A stretch of 64,000 bases of DNA from Macrolepiota albuminosa (lineage: Eukaryota > Basidiomycota > Agaricomycetes > Agaricales > Agaricaceae): NCBI GenBank assembly GCA_027475525.1, contig JAMWFC010000073.1, forward strand, positions 87,791 through 151,790, read 5' to 3'. Position numbers and translations under genes: made by a program. Positions 18,811-35,319 of this stretch are shown in pieces; positions within the stretch are counted from its first letter, which is position 1; each line of letters opens with the position of its first letter. The notes under the pieces were generated by a model. The model did not search any database. It saw only the letters and a program-made list of their open reading frames with translations, and had not been told where the DNA came from.

Positions 18811-19548
18811 AGTTAATCAGTAAGCCTTTCAACATTGCTTGATGGATATGCTGACCATGTCATAAGCTTTAGGATCACTTTGATCTCATCTTTAATAAGC
18901 CAGCCAGAAAGATTGCCACATAGAGACATCACAACGGTACGTGTCATACGTTGTACGGGAGCCCGCTTTGTGCTGTACCATACGTGTCCAGCGGAGTCCA
19001 CTACACTGGAGCGGAGCAGTCCCCACAGTGCCATAGAATACAGAGCCACGGACGTGTCACAATGTGCTGTATGACACGGTCCAGTGGATCGATAAAAGGC
19101 GGGCACACACATGCGCATGCAGGCCCGGCGGATGCCAGCAGACACTAGCGGACGTCAATGTGCGTCAGCGGCCGCCGGCGGGCATCAGCACACGAGTGAA
19201 AACCTCCTCCATTGGCGGACTTCATGGCATGAATAAACCCTCCTCGAGGTTCCCCATTTCCCTCCCCTCTCCATTCCTCCCCGCAATAACTCGAGGCTGC
19301 ACATCTCCCCTTCCATCCTTTTCCCACCCCCGACGCCAGTGTACGTCCACGAAAGGGCCCTGAAAATCTACGCAGGCCTATGCAAGCCACCAGCGGACAT
19401 CCATGCAGACGTACGTTGACGGACTCAAACCTACGCGGGCCCTCCCAGGCCTGCGCAGGACACCAGCGGACATCCACAGAGGCCTACGCAGGTCCACGGG
19501 GTCTGGTTGGACCAAGAAAAAAGGTAACGTCGACTTGCCCGTTGTATG

Positions 19549-19626
19549 CCTGTGGGGGGGAATTGAACCCCTGGCCTTGGGAAAGCCTCCAGCAACGGAA
19601 CGCACATTTAACCGTTGCACCACAGG
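19549..19626 (-). repeat. 78-nt tRNA-like module in left TIR
   Basis: Reverse complement of 34480-34557. The acceptor-like ends CCTGTGG and CCACAGG pair perfectly. The T-arm differs from the right copy by one base, giving AGGGG against CCCCC. B-box-like GGTTCAATTCC is present. Confidence 0.6.
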
Positions 19627-19794
19627 TCCGTTACTAACGGATAGATTCAAAGGTCGGATAACACAATGAACGGACGCCCACCTACATTTCCGCAGGTTCC
19701 CGTATGGATTTTTTGAGGTGGAAGGGGGGTGGCATACCTCCCAAAAGAGTTTTCGTGGCCTGAAAGGGGCGTTGGCATCAGCAGCCATCAGCTG

Positions 19795-19990
19795 GCCATC
19801 AGCTGGCATCCGTCGGAGTTCGCCGGCAGCCGTCGTGACCCGCTGGCATCCGTCGGCATCCGTCGGCATCCGTCGTGCATCCGTCGGCATCCGCCGGATA
19901 TCCGCTGGTATCCGTCGGAATCCACGGGAATCCGTCGGCAACCCCCGGCATCGTCCGGCATCGTCCGGCATCAGGGCGGGAGAGAAGGAA
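19795..19990. repeat. GC-rich short-word array (GGCATCCGTC units)
   Basis: The word GGCATCCGTC and variants (GGTATCCGTC, GGCATCGTCC) repeat roughly every 11 bp. The right TIR has the mirror array near 34150-34320, with fewer units. Such subterminal repeats often act as transposase binding sites in DNA transposons; that role is inference here. Confidence 0.7.
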
Positions 19991-20118
19991 ACAGGGTGCG
20001 TGGGTGTCCGCCGCATGGGGTGGCGTCTCGGAGAGCGTGATCCGGCATCAGGGCGGGAGAGAAGGAAACAGGGTGCGTGGGTGTCCGCCGCATGGGGTGG
20101 CGTCTCGGAGAGCGTGGG
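19962..20118. repeat. 78-bp tandem duplication inside left TIR
   Basis: The block starting CCGGCATCAGGGCGGGAGAG at about 19963 is repeated at about 20041, ending with GTCTCGGAGAGCGTG each time. The right TIR has one copy. A second nearby duplication involves the AGCGGACGTAGCAGACGTCG segment at about 20200 and 20275. Confidence 0.8.
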
Positions 20119-20509
20119 GGGTGGTGGAAGAGGGATGGGGGTGGGGAGAAAGAGGGGGAAGGGGGAAGGGGAGGAGCGTGGGTGTCCGCTGGTACCCCAG
20201 CGGACGTAGCAGACGTCGGACGGAGAAAGAGGGGGAAGGGGGAAGGGAGGAGCGTGGGTGTCCGCTGGTATGCCAGCGGACGTAGCAGACGTCGGACATC
20301 AGGTCAGGGGCAAGGAGGGAATCGGGGTGCATGTGGTGGATGGGGGTGGCGTGTGAGGTAGTGTGGGAAGTGGAGAGGATGGCACTGGGGAGAAAGAGGG
20401 GGAAGGGCGGAAGAGGGTGCATGAGTGTCCGCTGTCCGCTGGCATGCCAGCGGACGGTAGCAGACGGTAGCTGACATCAGCATGTGAGCCAGCTGACATC
20501 AGCGGTGCA

Positions 20510-20592
20510 ACCAGTCCCAGTGGTTCAGTGGAATATTCATTTATTGATATTCAATATTGTGTACAGTGGTGGGTTCTACTCCTACTTCACCT
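20510..20592 (+). repeat. tRNA-like module in left TIR
   Basis: A-box-like TGGTTCAGTGG at 20521-20531 is followed by the family signature AATATT and, about 50 bp later, B-box-like GGTTCTACTCC. The mirror copy is at about 33714-33796 (minus). Confidence 0.55.
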
Positions 20593-20971
20593 TAACAGGG
20601 ACTAATGCTGTGTTTTTATATGGGTGCATTTTTGCTCTACATATACATCGCACTGACCTGGAGTATGCGCCTGTGGTAGTGGATCTGACCAAAACTCTAG
20701 GAATTACTGAAGCGAGATAGGATGGAGGAGTTGACACATGAGATCATTCCAGCGCTCATGACAAGTGACGATACACCAGGGCTGACTACTTTTTTTACAA
20801 AGATCAGCACAGAGGTAGTCAGCCACAGTGCATCATCAACTTGTCATGAGCACTGGAATGAACACATGCACGAACTCGTCCATCTTATGCCGCTGCAGAA
20901 ATCTTTGGAGTTTTCAACGGATCAAATTCATGACGCTAGCGGACGTCAGCGGCCTGCTGCTATTATATAAT

Positions 20972-21056
20972 GTGAACTAGTGGGAGTCAAACCCACTTCT
21001 TGTGCACAATATGAAATATCAATTGATGAATATTCCATTGTACCACAGGCGCTTGC
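20972..21056 (-). repeat. tRNA-like module, left arm
   Basis: On the minus strand it reads GCGCCTGTGGTACAATGG, AATATT, then AAGTGGGTTTGACTCCCAC, a perfect 5-bp T-stem with a 7-nt loop. The mirror copy is at 33255-33335 (plus). Confidence 0.6.
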
Positions 21057-21558
21057 TACAAGTCAGGACGGTGTTCATGTAGTGCACAAACGGACCCATA
21101 CAGAATTTGAACGGATAGAGATTTTACTGCAACTGGTGCATCTGTATTGAATTGACAATATTAGACTGATATTTATTTACACCATAGAAGTATACAGGAA
21201 AGAGGAAAAGTACAGCGGTGGGTTCTACTCCCTCTACTCCACCTTAATGGGGTCTAATAGTGACAATGGAATATTGAGGGGCGGGTTGGACTCCTGCTAG
21301 TGACAAATATTTTAATAGGGCCTGTAAGCCCTAATAAAATATCCGTTCATCACTCGCTAGCATCATCAAGTTGATCCGTTAAAAACGCTAGAAATTACTG
21401 AAGCGGGTATGGGTTGGCCAAAGTTGCGCATAGTCACGAGATCTGGAATGACCACATGCGCAAAGACGATCAACCCATGCCACTGCAGAAATCTCTGGAG
21501 TTTTAAACGGATCACATTAATGATGCTAGCGGACATCAGCGGCCTGCTGCTCTAATAT

Positions 21559-21640
21559 GCACTAGCAGGAGTCGAACCCACCTCTTGTGCACAATATGAA
21601 ATATCAATTTATCAATATTCCATTGTACCACAGGCGCTTA
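21559..21640 (-). repeat. tRNA-like module, left arm, outside TIR
   Basis: On the minus strand: CGCCTGTGGTACAATGG, AATATT, then GGTGGGTTCGACTCCTGC with a perfect B box GGTTCGACTCC. It lies inside the TIR edge, so it is not just a mirror copy. Confidence 0.6.
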
Positions 21641-21836
21641 CTTAGAAGGGGGTCAAACCTGCCTGTCAGTGGCCTATGGTAGTTGATCTGACCCACTCAA
21701 TTTTCAGTATTGTGTGGAGTGGCAGGTTTGACTCCCCTAGTCCAGACTTCCCTAGTCCACCATAATGACGTATAATGGTGTCTTTTTATACTGCTGCATT
21801 TCTGCACTAGATGTAAACTGTACTAATTTTTGGTAA

Positions 21837-21917
21837 GGACCTGTGGTCGAATGGAATATTGATACATTGATATTTCATATTGTGCACAAGAGCCGGGTTC
21901 GAATCCCACTCGTGCAC
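21837..21917 (+). repeat. tRNA-like module, left arm
   Basis: A-box-like TGGTCGAATGG at 21844-21854, AATATT signature, and a consensus B box GGTTCGAATCC at 21896-21906. Another isolated consensus B box, GGTTCGAGTCC, is at 21992-22002, and a weaker relative with CTGTGGTCTAGCAG is at about 22190-22262. Confidence 0.65.
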
Positions 21918-22357
21918 ATCATTAGACATGACATAACTTTGTTTTACTAATTGTTATTTACGTCTATATTCTTTCTACTGCCCAATTCGAGGGTTCGAGT
22001 CCCCCTTGTGTAATCGTTGAAGAGTGTGTTGTTTTTTGCATTCATGAGAGTGGCATAACAGAACAAAACAATGGGACGGTTAATCTTAGTGGACCTGAGT
22101 CCTGTCCAAACTAATTGAAATGTCTGTAGTAAAGTGCTGTAGCCTAGTACACAATACTAGAGTGATATTTATGTATAATCCACAGAATGTCCTGTGGTCT
22201 AGCAGAATATTGTCAGTTTATGTTCCTTCTAGTGCACAACTGGAGGTAACGGATCAAACGGATTTATAATGGATTTGTCAGCGGCACAATGGGACGGCTA
22301 ATCTTGACGAAAAATAACCAACGGAAAAGCCAAGAATTATAGTAACTAAGGATTAAA

Positions 22358-24401
22358 TTACTCATCCGATGTGTATTCCTCCTCTTCATTAGATTCATGT
22401 AATGTGTCTGAATAGAACAAATCCTCATGAAGCAGGTAGTCTGCTGTCAAAAATGCAAAGTCGTCCGGTGTATATGGCCCTTGAGGTCTGGGAAGTGTGA
22501 TGTCTTCATACTTTGCTATCAGGCCTGACGATGAAGATGGTGAGGGTGACTCTGACATATCAACAGACACATCATCAGTACGACCAGCTTGATTGAAAAG
22601 GCCAATGGGCCTACATCGACCATGTTTTGCTCTAGCGCGAAATTCTTGTTCTGTTGAAATAAATTAACTATGATTACCAGTGCCAAATTATACTCACGTT
22701 GTTGATACAATTCGTTAATTCTTCTCTGATCCTCACGTCGAGTCATACGTGACTCATATTCCTCCCACTCCTGGACATTGTTACCAGTAGGTAGGGTTGG
22801 GGAAGGAGATTGTTGGAAGGGGGAAGACGGGATTTGAAGAGCCGTTACATCAAAAAGCAGTGGAAGATTTTCTTCGTCATCGGCTGCCATGCCTCCATCC
22901 GTCTCTTCTGCCGTCACAAGAAATAGCAGCGGAAGGTTTTCTTCATCCTCGGTCGCCATACGTCCGCCGCTCCGGACTTCTGTTTGTCTGCCGTCACCGG
23001 CCACCACGGTCTCCACGTCCATCTCCTCTTCTGCAGGAATGAACAAAGGGGGCAAATCATTGTCTTCGGTCTCCTCTTCCGCAGGAATGAACAAAGGAGG
23101 CAAAGAATCCTCTTCCATCTCCTCTTGCGCAGGAATGAACAAAGGCGGCAAAGATTTGTCTTCCGTCTCCTCTTCCGCAGGAATGAACAAAGGCGGCAAA
23201 GATTCGTCTTCCGTCTCCTCTTCCGCAGGAATGAACAAAGGAGGGATACCCTCTAAGTCAGGGTCACTAATGGATGGATTAGGGATATCCACCTGGTCGT
23301 CGTCAGTTTCCCCCAGCTCCCTGAATGTCCCACGGACATGAGCTGCTGGGGCGGAAGGAAGTTGGGATGCCGGTTGAACCACAACGTGAGAGTTTTCCAT
23401 TGTAGGGCCATACACCAGTCCAGGTTTACTCTGACTGTAGAGGTGGTGGAATGGATGTTGTGCGTTCAAGGGTTCGATATGTGTCAAGGATGGCCATTGG
23501 AGAGAGTCGACATCAGGGAGAGTGGTAGGATGCGCCATGGAGAGGCAGTCTTGAGGATCAGGCTGCTCACCATCAATACTGTTGGTATGGGACTCGATGC
23601 CTGTCAATTGGCCCGTCCGAGCAGGATCCACAGACCTGGCAACAGAACTGACAACGGAAGCAGCAACGGACTTGCTGCCAGCAAACAGGCGGATCATATC
23701 GTTGGCCGTTGGCACATGTTCCGTCCTATCCAGCGACCGCCACTTGTCTAGGGCTAGAAGCGTCCGCTGGTGGCCCCTGGTGGATCCGCTACCTGCAAAC
23801 ACACGGAGCAAATCGTCTGGTGCTGGGATGGACACCAATCCATCGGATGGCAATGTCATGGGCGGCCAGCGGTTGCATGCCAAGAAGCTTTCAAGAGAGT
23901 GGAAGCCTTGCTGATGTACGAGAAGGCAATGCTCCAGCATTTCATTGCTTAAGACCTGAACATCCTCTCGGCCAATGTGGTTCCACCAATCACAGCCATA
24001 CAGATTTCTAATAAGACCTTGACGGCCATCAACAAACTCCAGGATCTCTGTGGGCAAAGTTTGCTGATTTTGGAGAGGGAAAAATCAGCTCATGCTTTTG
24101 ATAATGTCTGGGACATTGCAGACCACATTATTCAGTGATGCAGCCCCCAGATATGACAATACAAAGTTCTATGGCACACAGTCAGATCCTAATATATTTA
24201 CACATTTTGAAGTTATCTTACCAACTCCTTGTCTAGATGCTGGATAATCCATGCCTCTTCCGCTTCAAGACTTGGCGCAAGATTGCCAAATATGGAAAGT
24301 GCTGCAATGAGGCATGACTCAATGTAGTCAACAACCTCTTGCAAATTTTCTAGTACAGTAGCTTGGGACATGACATTGTGTGGTACAGAGGTAGACGCCA
24401 T
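22358..24401 (-). CDS. Acidic repeat protein carried by KDZ element, 612 aa, unknown function
   Basis: Three exons (24401-24222, 24063-22698, 22650-22358) total 1839 nt in one frame, with introns GTAAGA...CAG and GTGAGT...CAG. The N-terminal 150 residues are mixed alpha-like with a WWNHIG patch. Two related stretches around FAGSGS and FAGSKS lie at about 149-191. Residues about 333-408 hold five 16-residue repeats of the type PPLFIPAEEETEDESL, followed by two diverged copies with NLPLLF. The C-terminus is Ser-rich and acidic. No catalytic motif or known domain was recognised. It lies 3' of the transposase on the same strand, with 173 bp between them, and is intact, which argues for a role in the element rather than decay. 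The start ATG at 24401 opens a 60-codon first exon. Confidence 0.8.
23025..23255. repeat. 48-bp coding minisatellite
   Basis: Five in-frame 48-bp units encode the PPLFIPAEEETEDESL repeats. On the plus strand each contains GCAGGAATGAACAAAGG. Length change in steps of 48 bp would keep the frame. Confidence 0.85.
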
Positions 24402-24574
24402 TGCACTCTTGCTTGTAGAAGGGGATACTGCTATGTATCAGATTTTTGTGCCTTGTAAACAAAAGTGATTTTCAACAATTCCATTGCACATGACTGTCAC
24501 AAATCCGTTCTGATCATCCGCTGATGGCAGCAAGCTGCATCCGTCACATCAATCCGTCTCTGCATCCACCATTT

Positions 24575-27500
24575 TCACAGCGGATCTCTTGCAGTTTGGG
24601 GGGGAATAAAATCAGGAAGCACCCGCCTAAATTTATCAATTGCCATCGAGGCCAATTCTTGCCACATGGCCACCTTTTTGTGGGCATATGACTGGAGACC
24701 TCTTTTCTTCACTGACATACCACGCTTCGACCAAATATCTGCCTGGTTGAAGAAATACCGAACTGTCCACTCCATTTCACTCGTGACAAGCTGACATTCC
24801 TCTGTCCATCTGCTGCGTTGTGCTCTAGCACGTAGATAATGAACACGATTAACTGAAGAGATATGTTCACAAATGGATGTAATGATAACGGAAATGTTAA
24901 CAAGAGGACTCACATTCAGAAATAGTTGTAGATTCATTTTCTGCATCAGAATTAGAGTGCCATATCCAAGATACCTTGATCCTTGATGAACCAGGAATGT
25001 TGGGATCTCGTATAGCTGTGCTTGCATTCAAATCTGCTTTCTGTAGAACTGGATACTTTCTCTGAATGCTGGGGTCCGATCCCAGTCGCAGCAGAGCACT
25101 GCGGCATTGTGCATAGGCACGAGCCTTCACCAGGATTGAGGCCTGGATTCTTTGAAGAGATGCGCGAGCTCGAGTTTTCACATTCTTGCTTGGGGCGACC
25201 CAGACGACGTGAGAATATAGGAATGATTTCTCTGCAATGAATTCCCGAAGGGCTTGCAGGAGCCTTTCAATTTGAATCAAGCGCAGATTGCGCTCTATCA
25301 TTGTTAATGGTGAGACATTACCCATGATCATAGATGGGAAGGAGATTTCAAAATCTTCTGGAACAACTACATCCGTTGGTTCAAGGTTATCCGCCGGCGG
25401 TACCAGCGGATCCGCTGGTTGTCCATCTTCCGCCATTTCATTGTCGTCAAAGGCTCCAGGAACTTCATCCAGTTCCAGGGGGGCAGTCCGCCTTCCACCA
25501 GCAATGAACCCGCTCCTGTCCTGAGAAGCAGCAAGGACATTGAGTCGAACCCTTAATATTTCTCTTTCCGCCTCGACCTTTTGCCGATCATCATTGCTTG
25601 CATGCCGATTCAAACGGCGAACCTGGTCCTGAATTGCAATTCTGAGCTTCCAATTAGTGAAATAGTTTGGGCCATCAGCAATACACCTTACTGCTGCTCC
25701 TCAATGTCAAGGGCAAGTTGAATCCAGAAGGAATGAATATCCATCGCTGCAACATCCGTTGAGTGGTTTCCACTGTCTGCTGCCATTCGGTCTTCACTTG
25801 CACTATTGAAGGTCATTGTACGAGCTTTCAGAATATCCATTGCTTTACGGTTTCCCTCCTCTCTGAGCCTTTCTGCCTTAGCTATTCCGGCTTCCCAGCT
25901 TGTTAGTAAATCCGTTGATATTCCGACGGATCGCTCGGTGAAATATTGAACGGCTGCATCTCTCATCTCAACAGCAGTCCTGTACTTTCAACATAGGAAT
26001 GGAACCATGTCAAGCAGCTTCTTCCAGTTTGAGTCACACATGTGATCATCAAGGATTTCTGCCCAATGTTCCAAGGTAGCCATACGGGCCATCTGTGAGA
26101 CTTCATTTAGTGTAGACCAGAGACTTTCAATTATCTCCCCAGCCAAATGACCGGCCCCAGGAATGAAGGACGGGGCAAAGCGGAAAAAACAATCCTCCTT
26201 ATGCCCATGGACATGAAGAAGTCCTATTGCAAAGTCCACGAGTAGATTATCTGGCAGGACTTCTCCGGCCTCGGCAAGCTGTTCAGAAAATTTGACACAC
26301 CACTGGCATGCTATGTCATATACCAGTAGGAGACGCTGAATCCCATCCATGTTGGTCATCTTAACTGCCCGTGTGATGGAAAAGTCTGTGTAAACCTGGC
26401 CTTCACCATGGGTCAAGTTTGTTACACTATTAGGAGCAAAGCAGCCGTGCCGTGTACATGCCGTTGCAACAATACCAGTAATGTCGCATGACTTGTTCAT
26501 CATCAGGGCCTTTTCAATAGCTTTGAATGTGTTTTCACAGGCGGCTCCCTGGACAGCCGGAGGTCCAGCAGACGGCCGACGGACAGGATTGAATTGATGA
26601 GCGGACGGCGGACAGGTAGAGTTAAAGAATGTCACTCACCGTTGGCTGTTCCTTTGCGCGCTTGAGATAGTGGGTGAGCTCATCCCTCCTGGCCATCATA
26701 CCACCGCCTTCTGAATGCCATACATCATGAGCAGGATTAGAATGTTGGACGTGATCCGCCTTGAAGTTGCCGTCCATCATTAAAGAACGATTGAACTTCC
26801 ACCGGACAGGATCTTCTTCCCAGTTGGATGGAAGATTGACTCCTGGTTGGGGACAAGTTGGACAGAATATTGCAAGTTCACCACGGTCCGGCGCCATGGG
26901 ATGCCTCAATTCATCATGGCCGAAGCCTGCCCACTTCAACTTCTTCAGCCACCGCCATGAACGAGAAAGTCGTCGTAGCTTGCGGTAAAGGTTATCCACC
27001 TCACCAGAAGATGCAATTGGGGAAGTTATTCTTGCAATTTTCTGCCAGTACTGGTAGGCGGATGCTTTGCACTCTAGATTTGTCAGACGGAAGTCGTCCA
27101 GCACAGCCGTTGTAAAATATGTTTGTGTCCGATCAAATGTACTGGGGACCAGCTGCGAGCGGATGGTATCCTCCACCAAGACATCCATCCCAGAACACTC
27201 ACATGAAATGACAGTGATGTAGTGTACTCCAGTTGTGTGAACAATCTGTTGTATTGGATTCCCAAAGCAATCATATCTGTCCATACGGAACCCGTTCGTG
27301 GCTGGCCGATCTTCTGGAATATCTTCTATTGGCACATTATTCTCTGGGTCCTCTTGCTCTTCCTCTTCCATGATTTGATCAAGGCTGGCATCCTGAAGTC
27401 TGCTCAGGAAATCTGAAGTCATGGATGGATGCGCTGCCGGATGTCCCGGATCGCTATCCGCTGATGGAAGTTCAACATCCAGTTGATATTCGAGTCGTAG

Positions 27501-28210
27501 AAACTCTTGCTCCTGAATGTCCTTTTTCCGCTCGTGGTCCTCAAGAGCCCTGACCCTGACCTTCCCTTGATGACAGTTTGCATGCAATGAATTGTGTTGG
27601 ATATAGAAATACCCTCCAGTATCCAACATATTCATTGGTTGGAAATACCTACCATTCCATACTTCAGGTCGGTGAAACGGGTTGGAGTCGTGCATGCAGC
27701 GGAAACATCCGCGACAGAATATTCTTGACCCAACGCAATCACGGCATCGCCATCGTGCGAGGTAATGGTCAGGACAAGCAAGGCAATCAGTAAGGTCATC
27801 CATTGATTCACGACCAAGCAATCCATTGAGCAACTGTGGAACATGGTTGATGAAGTCGTTAAGATAATCTGCCTGTGTCTATGTATGAACTTGAATAATT
27901 CGCTCTCAATAATAGCATACATTCAAATCACCTTTACATGCCTTATGGATACGGGCATTGTATCATCTACATCATCTACCGTTGGATTATTGTCCAAGTG
28001 TGCAAAGTTATCATCATCTGCAAATGCCGCAGATGGTGCACCAGTTACAATGGGAGCGGGACCCAGTGGTAGCCGTTGTGTTATGAGGACTGGCAACCCT
28101 CGTGTGTTCTGAGTGAGTTGTGTCCTTTCCTCAGCAAACGGGATGAGGTCCCTTTGTCTGATGACTGTTGTTTTTGGTCGCTTGCGTTTCTTTAGAGAGT
28201 TCAGGTTCAT
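24575..28210 (-). pseudogene. KDZ transposase with CxC2 cluster, one nonsense codon
   Basis: Exons 28210-27938, 27833-26640, 26548-25692, 25641-24914 and 24852-24575 give 1110 codons including the stop. Residues about 107-150 form the CxC2 cysteine cluster (CLACPDHYLARWRCRDC, then CRGCFRC and a downstream His). FCPTCPQPG is near 425. MDGNF near 450, VYDIACQW near 566 and GEIIESLWSTLN near 635 carry the likely acidic catalytic residues (family knowledge plus inference). The last 350 residues match the usual helical KDZ C-terminus, with RVHYLRARAQRSRW after the last intron. Codon 676 (25990-25988) is TGA, between FLC and KYR, where related proteins have arginine; CGA to TGA fits. The frame is open on both sides, so loss is recent. 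The start was set at the first ATG, 28210. Confidence 0.9.
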
Positions 28211-28452
28211 GATCAAAATATCTATGGCCAGGACCTAGCCATTGTATGGGATATCTAATGAGACTGCTCATCGATATCGGCAATATGCCCCAATTTTGAC
28301 AGGCTGGATACCAGCGGACAGCAGACCCTATCCGTCAAAGACAAACGGAATCCGTTTGTCATCAACGGACACTGAATGGAAAATCTATATTTTATCATGT
28401 GATCCTTCGGTTGAGAACTGTGTGGTTGCAGAAAATTATATTGTCTACAAAC
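28211..28452. promoter_or_regulatory. Divergent intergenic region between transposase and large unknown gene
   Basis: The two start codons are 242 bp apart and point away from each other, so this stretch must hold both promoters. It contains several TCCGY words (ATCCGT and ACGGAT between about 28310 and 28370) but no clear TATA box that I can defend. Confidence 0.55.
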
Positions 28453-30676
28453 ATGTCTGCCCTCCTGCAACCGCCTGAACCAATATTTTCACCAAAGAAA
28501 AGACAAGTGGAACCGATATTTACAGCAGAAGAAAGATCTATCTTTGAACCATACAAGGAACTCTACCGCTCCTCAACTACTCCTCAAGCTCGGACTGCTA
28601 TCTTGAAGGATAAAATCCTAACGGATATTTTCAACTACTGGGCCACTAAGGGGACAGAGCCAAAGACAGGGGAAGAGTGGGCAGAGAGAATTAAAGTAGG
28701 TACAGCAACTCATTGCAAAGAACTAGACATCATTTGCTTGAATAGAAGGTTGTCCAGTATATCAAGAATTGCTGGCGCCCTTATTACCAGCATAAAGATC
28801 CAAAGGTGCTCCTGAAAACTTCACTGCGAGATGTTGTCCGGCAGACAATGGCAAAGGAGATAAACGAGGAGATCCAGAACTTGTTGAGGGGTAAGGATCA
28901 CAACGCCTCGGGATTGGATGCATTTGCACAATATAATGTGGCTGTCAAAAATGTTATGCATCAACTCACACCGCAGGAGGAAAGTCGTTTATGGAAGATG
29001 GCGGCAGAATGGAGCGAAAAAGGAAATCCACCAGAAATTCAGCGCAAGTTGGTACTGCTTCCGTCCCCCATCTGTCCTCTATTCGTTGTACATCCGTCCG
29101 CTTGATTCCGCTTTCTAATCGTTGTCTCTCCAGGAAGGCCCAAAAGCACGGTTTGAAGCGTGTGGACGATGCAGATGTGCTTCGATTTAGAGAGATGGGC
29201 ATGTTGAGTTGGACTGTTGTTGGTTGGTATGCAGATGAAGGCATGACTATTAGAATGTATGTGGTGCCATCATTCTTTAAACAATTTTGACACCAATTAT
29301 AGTCATGACAATATGTCATACTTGACCCATGCTAACCAACCTACCTTTCAAGACTCCTTTCCTGACCTTGTTAGTGACCTCAACAAGAAGATGATGGATT
29401 ACATGTCTGCTCTTCTTGGTAGAGACATGCCGTCCAACATGCAATCACCCCATGATTTGACTCCTCCTATCCTTACATGCCATGACCTCATCCTTGATCT
29501 GGATAGGGATGGATTCCCAATATTACCAGCAGATCCAGGACCAAATATATTTCAAACTCGGGCAGAATTGGAAATGCTTGTCCGGGACTATCTAAATACT
29601 CATTACAGTGAATCCTAGTTTTCTCCACCTTTGCTCATCATCTGATCACCCCATCAGAAATTGCGTCTGGTTACCGTTATGAATCTGCTCCTTACAAGGC
29701 AGTGAGGACCAATGATCAGCAATTCATACATTCAAGGTATCTTCCAGAGGGTCTGATATTCCAAGATCCTCATAATCTTGGTCGGCCTGAGCTATTGCGT
29801 CTGCTGAACTTCTGGAGAGACCGTCAAGGACAGTATGGATCCGGTGACACCTTCCGCTGGACGGTTTATCTCAACCGTCACAAGCAGCCAGTAGCTGCCG
29901 AGTACGGCACCTGAGCTGATTGTGAAAAAAATGCAGCAGCAGCAGCAGCACGTAAGGCTACATGCAAAAATGGAGGGAAAAATCAGAATCAGAGGCCAAC
30001 ACCATCAGCGGTAGTCAATGGCAACAGTAGGACCATTGCTAATGATGGAGCCGCTGATGGTGGATCCGCTTTAGTCACTGGATCTGCAGCCAACTTGGAG
30101 TGGCAACGGGGGCCTACACTTCCCCTGTCACCTAGCGTACCACACACACCACTGCCTGACTTACAGGAGGAACCTCCTGTCTTGCGCTCACCGCACACTC
30201 CCCAGCCTCAGCACCACAACAGATCCACAGTTCACAATGAATCCCAACCAAATGTATCAGCTTCCATTCATGACGAGTCCGCTCTCGACGAATCCGTTCA
30301 TGACGGATGTGTTGATGGTACAGCAGTGGTAGATGCCACTACCATCCACCTCTTACAACAAAGAGGATGGAGCCATCCAGACCCTCCAATTAATGGCCCT
30401 AGTGATGGTTCCCCTAGATATAGAGTGTCAAGAAGGGTGCTCGACATTCTTCAAGATGAGGACAATGACCAATTTGAAGGTGAGGGAAGGCCGGCATTAC
30501 AAAACCAAAAGAAGCGCAAGGCATTGCCTAACCAATTGTCAACAAATTCCAAGCGACCCCGCAAGTCTCAAGCACAAATGTTACAGGAGGATGCAGCTCG
30601 ATACATTGATATGTCTACACCAGCAAAAAGGAGTAGCAGCCACACTAAGGTCATTCGACCAGTCCGCCGTCATTGA
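28453..30676 (+). pseudogene. Large KDZ-borne protein of unknown function, one in-frame TGA
   Basis: Exons 28453-28695, 28746-29047, 29134-29256, 29303-29607 and 29658-30676 total 1992 nt (664 codons). The middle contains QYIKNCWRPYYQHKDPKVLL, RFREMGMLSWTVVGWYADEG and, near residue 350, NDQQFIHSRYLPEGLIFQDP. From memory such blocks recur in hypothetical proteins of mushroom genomes; I do not know a function. The C-terminal third is Pro- and Ser-rich with a basic KKRKALPNQ and KRPRKS patch, possibly nuclear localisation. Codon 410 (29912-29914) is TGA, and the same frame continues at once into an Ala-run and the C-terminal domain; CGA to TGA is likely. An alternative is a short intron removing it, but the obvious donor (GTACGG) does not keep phase with the nearest CAG acceptors. 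Confidence 0.75.
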
Positions 30677-30957
30677 TGTGGGGAAGGGGGGAATGTTATA
30701 TTACATTTTGTAAACTATAGGGTTACAAAAATGTACGAATGTGTGTCATAATGAAAAAAAAAATATGTGATTGTCCATCTTCACTTCTCTTCTGTTGCCT
30801 TCCGTCTCTCAGTAAGCCGACTGGATGATCGGGTCCGTTGCATCGGCGGCCAACTACTTCGGGAGTTGCTGCAAGCCCGTCCCCTTGGGCCAGGGAGAGG
30901 GTCCTCGGCAGGGACTGGCGAAGGGACGGAAGATGGTTGAGGGGGTGACGGAGATGT
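30677..30957. other. Convergent 3' region between two KDZ-borne genes
   Basis: The unknown gene ends at 30676 on the plus strand and the zinc-cluster gene ends at 30958 on the minus strand. The gap holds T/A runs near 30700-30770 that could serve polyadenylation. Confidence 0.5.
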
Positions 30958-32406
30958 TCATGCGGGAGTCATCCCTGAGGATGTTTGTTGAAGCAGGATC
31001 TGCTCTTCCGTCTGACGGATATGTCCGGCGTGATCTTCAAATGTCTCACCCGCAAGAGAAACATTTGTTTGCAGGGTTTCTATGCGGCCACCAAGCGTGT
31101 CAACCTGAGTCTGATAGCTACGGAAGAAGTCCTCAATACGCGGTAACCAGCTTGCCTCAGCCATGACAAACCTGTCCTGCACCTGCTCCCCAACATCCCG
31201 CAATGCTTCCTGGAACCCATTCTCCATCCTGTCCAAACAGCTCTCCACCCCTGCCATTACACCAGCCACAATGTCCTCACTGTGACTAGACTCCATTGCC
31301 CGCTCCTTGCCCTTTCCCTTGACCGGAAGAGGGTCCACTGGGCGGTTGGAGGTCGACGGTTGGGATGGACGGACGGACGGTTTTGATGGTCCCGCGATTG
31401 GACTGGTTGGTTCATCTGCTAACTATTGGTTAGCTATTTGAGCAGGAAAAGAGTTTCATACCATCATCACTCTCAATAATCGTCACTGACTTCTTTCTCA
31501 GTGGTTTTTTCCCCTTTCCCTTGTTGCTGGGCTTGACGGTTTTCTTGACAATCATCAGGCTGCATGTTCGTTTGCGAATGAGCTGGCAGAGATTGCATGC
31601 AGTGCCGCCCTTTGTCCTGACACACTGTAGCCGCTTACTTGCACAATATTGGCAAGGGGGGTTGATGTGCTGACCCTCGCGACGAGGTGCTGTCCTCAGA
31701 TACCTGCCCAACAGCATCCCTCCAGTAATTTCCCCCTTCGGTATTCTGCCCTCTTGTTCTTCCTCTTCCTCTTCCTCTTCATCCTCGTCCTCATCCTCGT
31801 CCTCCTGCTCCTTCTGTCGACGATAGGTACCAGGAGGAGGTTGACCAATATAGGTCACCCATTTTGGCTTCTTGGGATTTGGCGACGGACCAGACAAATC
31901 TCCTGCCACTGGAGGACTCAGTCGTTTTCTCTTCTTCGGAATCGGTGATGGACCAGACGAATCTCCTGCTGCTGGCCTATGACCTATCCGGTCTTCTTGT
32001 GCTGGTACCGTCGACGGACCGGCCTCGGTCAACAGATCAGGTCGTTCTTCGCCCCCACTTGGTTCCTCCCCCCTTCCGCTCCTCTGGGTCCATTTCTTCG
32101 CAGCGTCCTTCAACCGCCTGGTCATATCCTCGTCAGAAAGCTTGCTCTGGAGTAGCGGGATAACTTCGTTGATGAAACTTCTCCTGGCATCAAGGAGGAG
32201 TTTCTTGTCATCCTTGACGTCCCTAACCTTGAACCACATGTCAATCTACAGGACGACTATTAGTGCATGTCTATTAGGCAGGAGTGCTTGTATCTTACCA
32301 GGTCCTTCTGCTGTGCTTTGAGTTGTCGCAGGTCTCCTCTGAGAGCAAGGTATAATACTCGAACATCCGCGTCAACGACCCGTTGGTGGAGTTCTTCGTT
32401 AGACAT
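30958..32406 (-). CDS. KDZ-borne protein with Zn2Cys6-like cluster, 450 aa
   Basis: Three exons (32406-32299, 32245-31462, 31418-30958) total 1353 nt in frame. Residues 234-264 have six cysteines spaced CX2CX6CX8CX2CX7C, which fits a fungal binuclear zinc cluster (CQYCASKRLQC, then CNLCQLIRKRTC). Before it lie a basic PKKRKR patch and a run of Glu/Asp (about 182-200); after it a basic KGKGKKPLRKK segment. The C-terminal exon is predicted coiled coil (DRMENGFQEALRDVGEQVQD and RIETLQTNVSL). In the family sense this would be a DNA-binding protein; its placement at mid-protein rather than at the N-terminus is unusual for a classical transcription factor. It is intact, converges on the unknown gene, and may regulate the element or help bind its ends; that role is inference. 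An ATG 42 bp upstream (32448) is also possible. Confidence 0.8.
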
Positions 32407-32602
32407 GGCGGATGGAGGATTAAAGAAACGGACGAGAACTTTACACAAAGCAAGTTCTGAAAATAGATATCATGTGACCCTGTTTAAGTTACAAAAGAAG
32501 TTTGATTTATTGCTTGACAAAACCTTACTTTGTTTATCTTACAGTTTAGTAAATAACAATTAGCTAAGCAGGCCAAAAAAGGCAAACGTCTTAATGTTCA
32601 TT

Positions 32603-32686
32603 GCACTAAGCAGGAGTCGAACCCACCTACTGCAACACACAATGAAGACCAATGGATAATATTCCACTAGATTATCGATGCTTACT
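32603..32686 (-). repeat. tRNA-like module, right arm 1
   Basis: Minus strand: GTAAGCATC, A-box-like TAATCTAGTGG, AATATT, and B box GGTTCGACTCC followed by TGCTTAGTGC. Confidence 0.6.
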
Positions 32687-32800
32687 GTACACTGCTATAG
32701 TCTAAATAGATATCATGTCACTATGTTTAAATTAGGACCTTACTTTGTTTATCATACTGTGTAGTAAATAACAATTAGCTAAAAACAGTGAGACGAAAAT

Positions 32801-32878
32801 GCACTAGTAGGAATCGAACCTGTCTACTGCAAGACATAATAAAGACCAATGGATAATATTCCACTAGACCACCAATGC
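32801..32878 (-). repeat. tRNA-like module, right arm 2 (78 nt, Gly-tRNA-like 5' half)
   Basis: Minus strand starts GCATTGGTGGTCTAGTGG, which from memory is nearly the 5' half of eukaryotic tRNA-Gly. It has a consensus B box GGTTCGATTCC and ends CTAGTGC; the 5' GCATTGG and 3' CTAGTGC strands pair over 7 positions if two G-T pairs are allowed. The anticodon region is replaced by an AATATT-containing segment. Confidence 0.65.
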
Positions 32879-32960
32879 TTACTTTACATTGCTATAATGT
32901 AAATAAACATCAGTCTATTCTTCTGTGTGTGGTCAAAAATATTTGAGTTCGATCTCAATA

Positions 32961-33038
32961 CACTAGAGGGAGTCGAACCCACCTAATGCAAGATACAAGG
33001 AATACCAATGAGAAATATTCCACTACACCACAGATGCT
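32961..33038 (-). repeat. tRNA-like module, right arm 3 (78 nt)
   Basis: Minus strand: GCATCTG, consensus A box TGGTGTAGTGG, AATATT, and consensus B box GGTTCGACTCC. Its length equals that of the module at 32801. Confidence 0.65.
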
Positions 33039-33254
33039 TCATGTATAATGCTATGGTGTAAATCAATATCAGTCCAATATTCCGCTACAAACCATGGTTT
33101 TCCTCTTTCCTGTATACTTCTATGGTGTAAATAAATATCAGTCTAATATTGTCAATTCAATACAGATGCACCAGTTGCAGTAAAATCTCTATCCGTTCAA
33201 ATTCTGTATGGGTCCGTTTGTGCACTACATGAACACTGTCCTGACTTGTAGCAA

Positions 33255-33335
33255 GCGCCTGTGGTACAATGGAATATTCATCAATTGATATTTCATATTG
33301 TGCACAAGAAGTGGGTTTGACTCCCACTAGTTCAC
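33255..33335 (+). repeat. tRNA-like module in right TIR
   Basis: Mirror copy of 20972-21056: TGGTACAATGG, AATATT, then a T-arm GTGGG-TTTGACT-CCCAC. Confidence 0.6.
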
Positions 33336-33713
33336 CTTATATAATAGCAGCAGGCCGCTGACGTCCGCTAGCGTCATGAATTTGATCCATTGAAAACTCC
33401 AGAGATTTCTGCAGCGGGATAAGATGGGCGAGTTGACGCATGTGGTCATTCCAGTGCTCATGACCAGTTGATAATACACTGTGGCGGGCTACCTTTGTGC
33501 TGGTCTTTGTAAAAAAGGTAGTCAGCCCTAGTGTATCGTCACTTGTCATGTGAACTGGAATGATTTCATGTGTCAACTCCTCCATCCTTTCTCGTTTCAG
33601 TAATTCCTAGAGTTTTGGTCAGATCCACTACCACAGGCGCATACTCCAGGTCAGTGCGATGTATATGTAGAGCAAAAATGCACCCATATAAAAACACAGC
33701 ATTAGTCCCTGTT

Positions 33714-33796
33714 AAGGTGAAGTAGGAGTAGAACCCACCACTGTACACAATATTGAATATCAATAAATGAATATTCCACTGAACCACTGGGACTGG
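33714..33796 (-). repeat. tRNA-like module in right TIR (second)
   Basis: Mirror copy of 20510-20592, with TGGTTCAGTGG and GGTTCTACTCC on the minus strand. Confidence 0.55.
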
Positions 33797-34479
33797 TTGC
33801 ACCGCTGATGTCAGCTGGCTCACATGCTGACGTCAGCTACCGTCTGCTACCGTCCGCTGGCATGCCAGCGGACAGCGGACACTCACGCACCCTCTTCCGC
33901 CCTTCCCCCTCTTTCTCCCCAGTGCCATCCTCTCCACTCCCCACACTACCTCACACGCCACCCCCGTCCACCACATGCACCCCGCTTCCCTCCTCCCCCC
34001 TGACCTGACGTCCGCTGGGGTACCAGCGGACACCCACGCTCCTCCCCTTCCCCCTTCCCCCTCTTTCTCCCCACCCCCATCCCTCTTCCGCCACCCCCCA
34101 CGCTCTCCGAGACGCCACCCCATGCGGCGGACACCCACGCACCCTGTTTCCTTCTCTCCCGCCCTGATGCCGGACAATGCCGGACGATGCCGGGGGTTGC
34201 CGAGATACCAGCGGATATCCGGCGGATACCGACGGATGCATGACGGATGTCAACGGATGCCAGCAGGTCACAATGGCTGCCGGCAAACTCCGACGGATGC
34301 CAGCTGATGGCCAGCTGATGGCTGCTGATGCCAACGCCCCTTTCAGGCCACGAAAACTCTTTTGGGAGGTATGCCACCCCCCTTCCACCTCAAAAAATCC
34401 ATACGGGAACCTGCGGAAATGTAGGTGGGCGTCCGTTCATTGTGTTATCCGACCTTTGAATCTATCCGTTAGTAACGGA

Positions 34480-34557
34480 CCTGTGGTGCAACGGTTAAAT
34501 GTGCGTTCCGTTGCTGGAGGCTTTCCCAAGGCCGGGGGTTCAATTCCCCCCCACAGG
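34480..34557 (+). repeat. 78-nt tRNA-like module in right TIR
   Basis: The geometry follows a tRNA: 7-bp acceptor stem CCTGTGG/CCACAGG, a 3-bp D-stem GCA/TGC closing a GG-containing loop, and a perfect T-arm GGGGG-TTCAATT-CCCCC joined directly to the acceptor strand. The anticodon region does not fold canonically: a 4-bp TTCC/GGAG stem with a 6-nt loop, then a long variable-arm-like segment. I call it tRNA-like, not a tRNA gene; no isotype is assigned. Confidence 0.6.
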
Positions 34558-35319
34558 CATACAACGGGCAAGTCGACGTTACCTTTTTTCTTGGTCCAAC
34601 CAGACCCCGTGGACCTGCGTAGGCCTCTGTGGATGTCCGCTGGTGTCCTGCGCAGGCCTGGGAGGGCCCGCGTAGGTTTGAGTCCGTCAACGTACGTCTG
34701 CATGGATGTCTGCTGGTGGCTTGCGTAGGCCTGCGTAGATTTTCAGGGCCCTTTCGTGGACGTACACTGGCGTCGGGGGTGGGAAAAGGATGGAAGGGGA
34801 GACGCGCAGCCTCGAGTTATTGCGGGGAGGAATGGAGAGGGGAGGGAAATGGGGAACCTTGAGGAGGGTTTATTCATGCCATGAAGTCCGCCAATGGAGG
34901 AGGTTTTCACTCGTGTGCTGATGCCCGCCGGCGGCCGCTGACGCACATTGACATCCGCTAGTGTCTGCTGGCATCCGCCGGGCCTGCATGCGCATGTGTG
35001 TGCCCGCCTTTTATCGATCCACTGGACCGTGTCATACAGCACATTGTGACACGTCCGTGGCTCTGTATTCTATGGCACTGTGGGGACTGCTCCGCTCCAG
35101 TGTAGCGGACTCCGCTGGACACGTATGGTACGGCACAAAGCGGGCTCCCGTACAACATATGACACGTACCGTTGTGATGCCCTACCCTGAGATTGCACAA
35201 TTGGTGGCTGAAAATACTGTCAATCTCATTGTGCAGGTATGTGTTAGATATTTCTATCAAAATATATTTCAGCCAACCTCTGCTTAACAAGCCTGGGCAT
35301 AAAACAACAACTCAAGAGC

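Follow-up and report, generated by a model that had tools for sequence, protein, structure and literature searches.

The window, that is, the whole stretch of 64,000 nucleotides of Macrolepiota albuminosa analysed here, contains a KDZ element of 16,273 bp (18917..35189), which runs from 5'-CACATAGAGA to CCCTACCCTG-3', with CA..TG ends. It is flanked by a target site duplication of 7 bp, AGATTGC (left 18910..18916, right 35190-35196). Genes occupy its centre. The KDZ transposase domain (PF18758, E 7.9e-39) lies on the reverse strand at 25988..26635, and the CxC2 cysteine cluster (PF18803, E 3.7e-15), on the same strand at 26622..27878, belongs to a protein with its closest relative in Termitomyces (62% identity over 80%). 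Both marks of a KDZ DNA transposon, the PF18758 domain and the target site duplication, are present. Two arms enclose this centre, at 18917..22300 on the left and 32350..35189 on the right (the inner limits are approximate). They are inverted with respect to each other over about 2.1-2.3 kb, at 96-98% in the two longest blocks.

The outermost 10 bp (18917-18926 against 35180-35189) differ, reading CACATAGAGA at the left end and CAGGGTAGGG at the right end, before a common CATCACAACGG. All our counts refer to a single genome of 100.1 Mb in 129 contigs, where other copies of the element end alike, with CACATAGAGACATCACAACGG at one extremity and CAGGGTAGGGCATCACAACGG at the opposite one. Because the readable copies show the same two kinds of ends, the element is polar despite its long inverted arms. 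A reverse-matching 7-bp pair is found in the window and in six further copies (L054, L055/56, L057/58, L061/62, L063/64 and L071/72), with one extra base in that of L055/56; this scoring left out L067/68 and L069/70, which were not scorable, while of L073 a single end was read. Two copies located about 350 kb apart on one contig, L059/60 and L065/66, have the target duplication CTGAGCC in common, which indicates a segmental duplication or an assembly repeat. The outer part of the arms is GC-rich (19400-20480 and 33810-34750, with 1-kb bins at 0.55-0.61, bin 33001-34000 being at 0.46) and carries minisatellite-like palindromic repeats, GTCCGCTGG / CCAGCGGAC. The left arm also contains an inverted repeat (20682-20923) of 85 nt that encloses a loop of 72 nt and is 75% complementary. 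It is a weak match to a miRNA precursor, and a long hairpin RNA could form there.

The arms hold eleven complete tRNA-like modules, the gene-bearing centre none. The initial annotation had named eleven modules, restricted to the arms and in several cases without mirror copies, and all eleven are indeed where it placed them, in the arms. Named after their starts in that annotation, three pairs are mirror copies across the arms (19549/34480, 20510/33714 and 20972/33255), which leaves eight distinct types, while 21559, 21837, 32603, 32801 and 32961 have no such counterpart. Type 34480 is a four-arm module, with a 7-bp closing stem, two hairpins and a 5-bp T arm (34480..34557, forward strand, T6 at 34584-34589). 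Its mirror copy (19549..19626, reverse strand) has TGGTGCAACGG as A box, GGTTCAATTCC as B box and a T6, in the sense direction, at 19517-19522. Type A is found at 20512..20591 (forward strand, TTTTT at 20613-20617) and again at 33716..33795 (reverse strand, sense TTTTT at 33690-33694). There is no T-run behind type B, at 20970..21054 (reverse strand) and mirrored at 33253..33337 (forward strand), nor behind type C (21555..21639, reverse strand); type D (21835..21919, forward strand) has TTTT 35 nt past its B box. On the reverse strand of the right arm follow type E (32958..33039, sense TTTTT at 32935-32939), type F (32798..32880, sense TTTTT at 32781-32785) and type G (32601..32683, sense T6 at 32575-32580), the A box of which, TAATCTAGTGG, is broken. 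Incomplete units also stand on the forward strand of the left arm: an orphan B box, GGTTCGAGTCC, with a T6 29 nt on (21992..22037), a half module that keeps the AATATT part without a B box (22190..22244, a weak HMM match, E 4.7e-4), and remnants with B-box-like sites at 21221 and 21284 (21221..21294), another one being at 21725. The succession of A box, AATATT and B box that all modules were said to have in common is present in most of them. It fails in 19549/34480, which lack AATATT, in 32603 with its broken A box, and in 20510/33714, where the B box is GGTTCTACTCC.

An HMM built from nine window modules has full-length matches in the window at 20512-21919 and 32601-33795 only, with additional short or weak ones in the left arm; type 34480 is placed farther out than these, in both arms. 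With at most one mismatch, the B box GGTTCGANTCC occurs 20 times in the window against 1.6 expected, a number reached by none of 100 shuffles, and 17 of these sites are in the arms, two in the centre and one outside the element. Modules were duplicated jointly with flanking arm sequence, as repeats of 126-139 nt in the arms show, and at some places in the genome they follow one another head to tail every 77 bp.

What is new here is a T-run at the distance seen in host tRNA genes, past the B box, in about half of the modules recognized by their signature. This signature, GGAATATTN{24,42}GGTTNNANTCC (that is, GGAATATT, a spacer and the B box), has 503+507 = 1,010 matches in the genome, and none when the pattern is read backwards. 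TTTTT begins 24-34 nt past the B box in 257+276 of the 503+507 matches (at most 533), AAAAA at the same place in 5+1; five of 100 T5 rows among the matches listed are second records of the same place with a displaced end, which brings the real proportion closer to one half of the 1,010. In the window, T5 or T6 is found 24-36 nt past the B box in types A, E, F, G and 34480, and at the orphan of 21992. Counted as T5 at +24..+36, an interval picked after the data were seen, this makes 6 of 12 distinct B-box sites (background 0.0187, binomial 3.6e-8, or about 2e-5 when the related E/F/G are taken as one). Unique downstream contexts have a T5 within 75 nt in 23 of 42 cases, antisense contexts in 0 of 37, and for T4 the figures are 30/42 versus 10/37. 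Among 20 of the 63 host tRNA genes listed, 16 have a T5 within 30 nt of their 3' end, against 0/20 in the antisense direction. Nine of the 16 are at +18 to +24, i.e. about +29 to +35 past the B box, and as the tRNA ends 11 nt beyond the B box, module and host distances agree. The downstream sequences of type A, of types E-H (which are related among themselves) and of type 34480 seem unrelated by eye yet have the T-run, and it is therefore not one inherited block. The three parts of a type-2 Pol III gene, A box, B box and oligo-T, are found together here, with T5 in about half of the copies and missing from types B, C and D. The initial annotation had considered that the modules might be transcribed; these candidate terminators, which about half of the copies have at the distance usual in the host, add support to that idea, transcription itself being predicted from the letters.

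The search for tRNA genes that had also been proposed gave nothing positive. ARAGORN found no tRNA in the window, and no Rfam model exceeded its cut-off there, miRNA and snoRNA matches staying far under theirs. The Rfam tRNA model does span three copies of the 32603 type from end to end, at 19.4-19.7 bits for a cut-off of 29 (E 4.8-6). A recognized cloverleaf is absent from the window, and over 12 loci the score is at most 19.7 bits, again for 29. As the match to the tRNA model is not significant, descent from a tRNA rests on the A box, the B box, their spacing and acceptor-like ends. In the initial annotation, one module was said to begin almost like tRNA-Gly; two tRNA-Gly-shaped patterns had 0 matches in the host genome, so that this likeness stays no more than a lead.

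That the units give a functional small RNA, acting in trans, is an idea encouraged by the fold of type 34480, the four arms of which (closing stem, two hairpins, T arm) reach -37.7 kcal/mol with a z of -2.9, other types having z values of -0.4 to -4.6. When the pairing partner is slid by 1-3 columns, 41-55% of the cells pair instead of 84.8%, which is expected, since the structure was drawn from the same sequences. Against the idea, there is no covariation: over 14 sequences, picked by hand, the pairs of the acceptor, central and T arms are 84.8% intact, against 85.5% after shuffling, with one double change, and pairing partners shift from type to type. We consider a trans-acting RNA very improbable, and RNA function was rejected as the main reading for want of covariation. 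Judging from the sequences, what has been kept is the promoter, in many cases with the T-run; for the RNA fold the comparison demonstrates no conservation.

The promoter boxes behave otherwise. To measure their constancy, 88 HMM matches were reduced to 57 unique sequences, and 75 complete units, grouped at 90%, to 21 representatives, of which 18 were compared for changes in the boxes once three tandem partials had been removed. Of the 47 unique sequences scored, 45 have an A-box 11-mer that fits TRGYNNARNNG (10 of the 57 were left out, having no exact GGAATATT or being cut before the A box). None of 126 cells at its consensus positions departs from TRGYNNARNNG in the 18 representatives, and the seven consensus columns show one change in total, a permitted A/G, while the four N positions have 5, 2, 0 and 0 changes. 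For comparison, changes per column amount to 3.0 upstream of the A box and 3.73 further downstream. The B box has three changes over ten positions versus four at its single N. Unit picking demanded GGAATATT, which covers the last two positions of the A box, as well as the majority of the B-box letters, and a B-box pattern had served to choose some of the loci, so that the invariance of GGAATATT and of the B box is partly by construction. No such demand was made on the first nine positions of the A box, although the modules from which the HMM was made had A boxes. Departures are few: the A box TAATCTAGTGG in 2 of 47 sequences, the B box GGTTCTACTCC of type A, and GGTTTGACTCC in some type B copies. 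At the level of letters, then, the A box is kept among diverged modules, and the B box is kept too, with a selection bias. The initial annotation had reckoned with boxes that might not be conserved among copies; the 18 diverged representatives have them conserved. AATATT, right behind the A box (e.g. 21855-21860), is kept in most core modules, its invariance among the 18 representatives being due to unit selection. To our knowledge it has no Pol III role and matches no Pol III element.

The tRNA-like units are linked to the KDZ family of the window. Among 20 random stretches of 10 kb, one of which happened to overlap the window, modules are present in L013 and L027 only and strict B boxes in L013, L014, L016 and L027 only. 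These four all carry the same KDZ family as the window, and the remaining 16 have neither modules nor strict B boxes. The joint A box and B box pattern gives nine sites across the 20 stretches, all in the four KDZ-family ones. As few strict B boxes would be expected by chance anyway, the lack of modules in the 16 stretches carries more weight than the lack of B boxes. All eight loci retrieved with the first pattern proved to be KDZ arms, and the order of modules is alike from copy to copy (by eye). With an earlier pattern, and among the KDZ matches listed, a KDZ domain is found within 12 kb of 48 of 100 module places, against 6.9% for random positions; that this is only about half may reflect copies without the gene. 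Module places to be read and divergent KDZ loci were picked by hand. Five of the latter have no module in the 10 kb round each domain, and the modules are thus a trait of the window's family, not one shown for KDZ elements at large. A viral collection had no exact match to the A box and B box pattern.

This distribution bears directly on the possibility that the modules are an independently mobile SINE family of the ordinary kind, by which KDZ arms were hit by chance. tRNA-derived SINEs begin with a tRNA-like head that has A and B boxes, as the modules do. Unlike them, modules are clustered in arms, often have a T-run and show, by eye, no A-rich tail. Within 1.5 kb, 92 of 100 copies among the matches listed are clustered, when about 3% is expected, and 160 kb of random sequence devoid of the KDZ family contains none. 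Dispersed, independent insertions are not what we see, save at one of six seemingly isolated places. Set against nine arm loci and the element of the window, five of these are inside KDZ-arm sequence, some of them with further decayed modules. The sixth, L095 (C6:336500-337100), is a diverged module whose similarity to the arms is limited to the module itself, outside recognizable KDZ arms; maybe another element carries the unit there. Ordinary SINEs are hardly credible as an explanation. The scattered SINEs that the initial annotation had opposed to its own view are mostly not found, the 16 random family-free stretches being empty of modules and L095 isolated, and its question whether modules always sit in KDZ arms has a positive answer for five of the six seemingly isolated places and within one KDZ family. 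Its interpretation is supported in part: tRNA-like modules that carry Pol III boxes and keep to the arms of KDZ elements are well supported, and insulation or the marking of ends for the transposase would be possible roles.

It may still be that the units are mere passengers. A tRNA gene or a tRNA-SINE would have entered an ancestral KDZ element on a single occasion and been duplicated with its arm, and boxes and T-runs would persist through the youth of the copies rather than through any function. Duplication together with flanking arm sequence, in the repeats of 126-139 nt, agrees with this, as do the identity of copies (97-100%, 40 copies scored per type for two types, of 573 and 429 candidates), the missing T-run of types B and C and the off-consensus B box of one type. 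Youth does not explain why the consensus positions of the A box are invariant between types while the flanks and two of its N positions vary. Nor does it account for type F of the window, in which the segment AATTTTTGACC of related copies is absent, and with it their T5 site, a T5 being found at the new junction (by eye). We hold passengers to be rather unlikely. The modules could also be subterminal repeats, on which the KDZ transposase docks, their likeness to tRNA coming from their origin only. They are numerous, in both orientations and in both arms, and linked to the window's KDZ family. L054 (C126:584700-588000), a 3-kb derivative made of the two arms only, with its 7-bp duplication intact, has retained one type A module and, in each arm, a module of type 34480. 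This single derivative, however, lacks types B-H, modules are absent from the five divergent KDZ loci examined, and docking predicts neither a T-run at host-like distance nor a constraint specific to the A box. We regard subterminal repeats as improbable.

We lean towards another reading: that the modules are type-2 Pol III units derived from tRNA, kept in KDZ arms for promoter function, with a boundary role in cis. They look like Pol III genes in which the tRNA was lost and the gene kept, which would fit transcription or occupancy by TFIIIC, TFIIIB and Pol III. An ancestral KDZ element would have acquired tRNA-derived units once or a few times; these would have multiplied inside the arms, at some sites in tandem with the period of 77 bp, and selection for promoter function would keep them while the tRNA body decays. 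TFIIIC would bind, and Pol III might transcribe the units into RNAs of roughly 100 nt. The element could benefit in cis, arrays of TFIIIC and Pol III holding both arms nucleosome-poor. We infer the boundary role by analogy with the B-box arrays of the fission yeast mating-type region: arm arrays would separate the genes of the transposon from flanking heterochromatin. With intact start signals in the A and B boxes and stop signals in about half of the units, the sequence suggests that the element is equipped with Pol III genes or chromatin boundaries that move along with it, and the modules are probably occupied by TFIIIC and Pol III as boundaries in cis.

Several observations count against this Pol III reading. 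A T-run is lacking in types B and C and amounts to TTTT in type D, and about half of the modules recognized by the signature in the genome have no T5 at the expected distance. Type A has an off-consensus B box, and 32603 a broken A box. Divergent KDZ loci are without modules, L095 is outside a recognizable arm, and only 48 of 100 module places are within 12 kb of a KDZ domain among the matches listed. The conserved AATATT fits no Pol III element that we know of. Furthermore, a boundary made by TFIIIC alone would not need a terminator, which counts against the boundary part of the reading. As a more tentative possibility, the arms might be portable boundaries, paired Pol III arrays insulating the transposase genes from silencing at every new site of insertion and spreading hundreds of TFIIIC sites through the genome.

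Pol III promoters are a known trait of retroelements, SINEs and TRIMp3 in particular. About 1,000 signature units linked to the arms of one DNA transposon family, every second one followed by a T-run, would show that DNA transposons are also able to maintain Pol III units. Such arm units could explain tRNA-like pseudo-hits in mushroom genomes, and they provide a natural test of whether arrays of TFIIIC shield a transposon against being silenced. The initial annotation knew of no described case in KDZ elements, and among the matches listed in open-licence PubMed Central titles and abstract openings no KDZ case was found, nor was any DNA transposon carrying Pol III units evident.

Three known systems come close. 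The Laccaria KDZ elements Kyakuja-1_LB and Kyakuja-2_LB are described with a 7-bp target site duplication, 5'-CA..TG-3' ends and no TIRs (PMC12730594). The window element, likewise of the KDZ group, has the 7-bp duplication and the CA..TG ends; unlike Kyakuja as described there, it has inverted arms of 2.1-2.3 kb with differing outermost 10 bp. We call it Kyakuja-like by these two features of its sequence, a label with no tree behind it that claims no membership of the lineage. In the main text of the Kyakuja paper, the terms 'tRNA', 'Pol III' and 'RNA polymerase III' do not occur (PMC12730594). Helenus, Ajax and Cassandra (TRIMp3) have a tRNA-like or 5S-like Pol III promoter in their terminal repeats, with conserved regions round the A and B boxes, and Helenus occurs in Agaricomycetes too (PMC10886601). 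TRIMp3 are LTR elements with target site duplications of 4-5 bp, whereas we find, in place of the LTRs and 5-bp duplication of a Helenus TRIM, the inverted arms of a KDZ DNA transposon, each with several diverged units, and a 7-bp duplication. Finally, IR-L and IR-R of the fission yeast mat region contain five B boxes each, which recruit TFIIIC and form a boundary with Epe1 (PMC4502379). There as here, paired inverted repeats with several B boxes each flank a domain, a likeness which in our case is one of sequence. Those repeats belong to a host locus studied for its B boxes, in contrast with a mobile element where the A box joins the B box, often with a T-run, in about 1,000 units. From these published descriptions, TRIMp3 elements such as Helenus are the nearest structural parallel, the fission yeast mat region the nearest working model and Kyakuja the nearest element.
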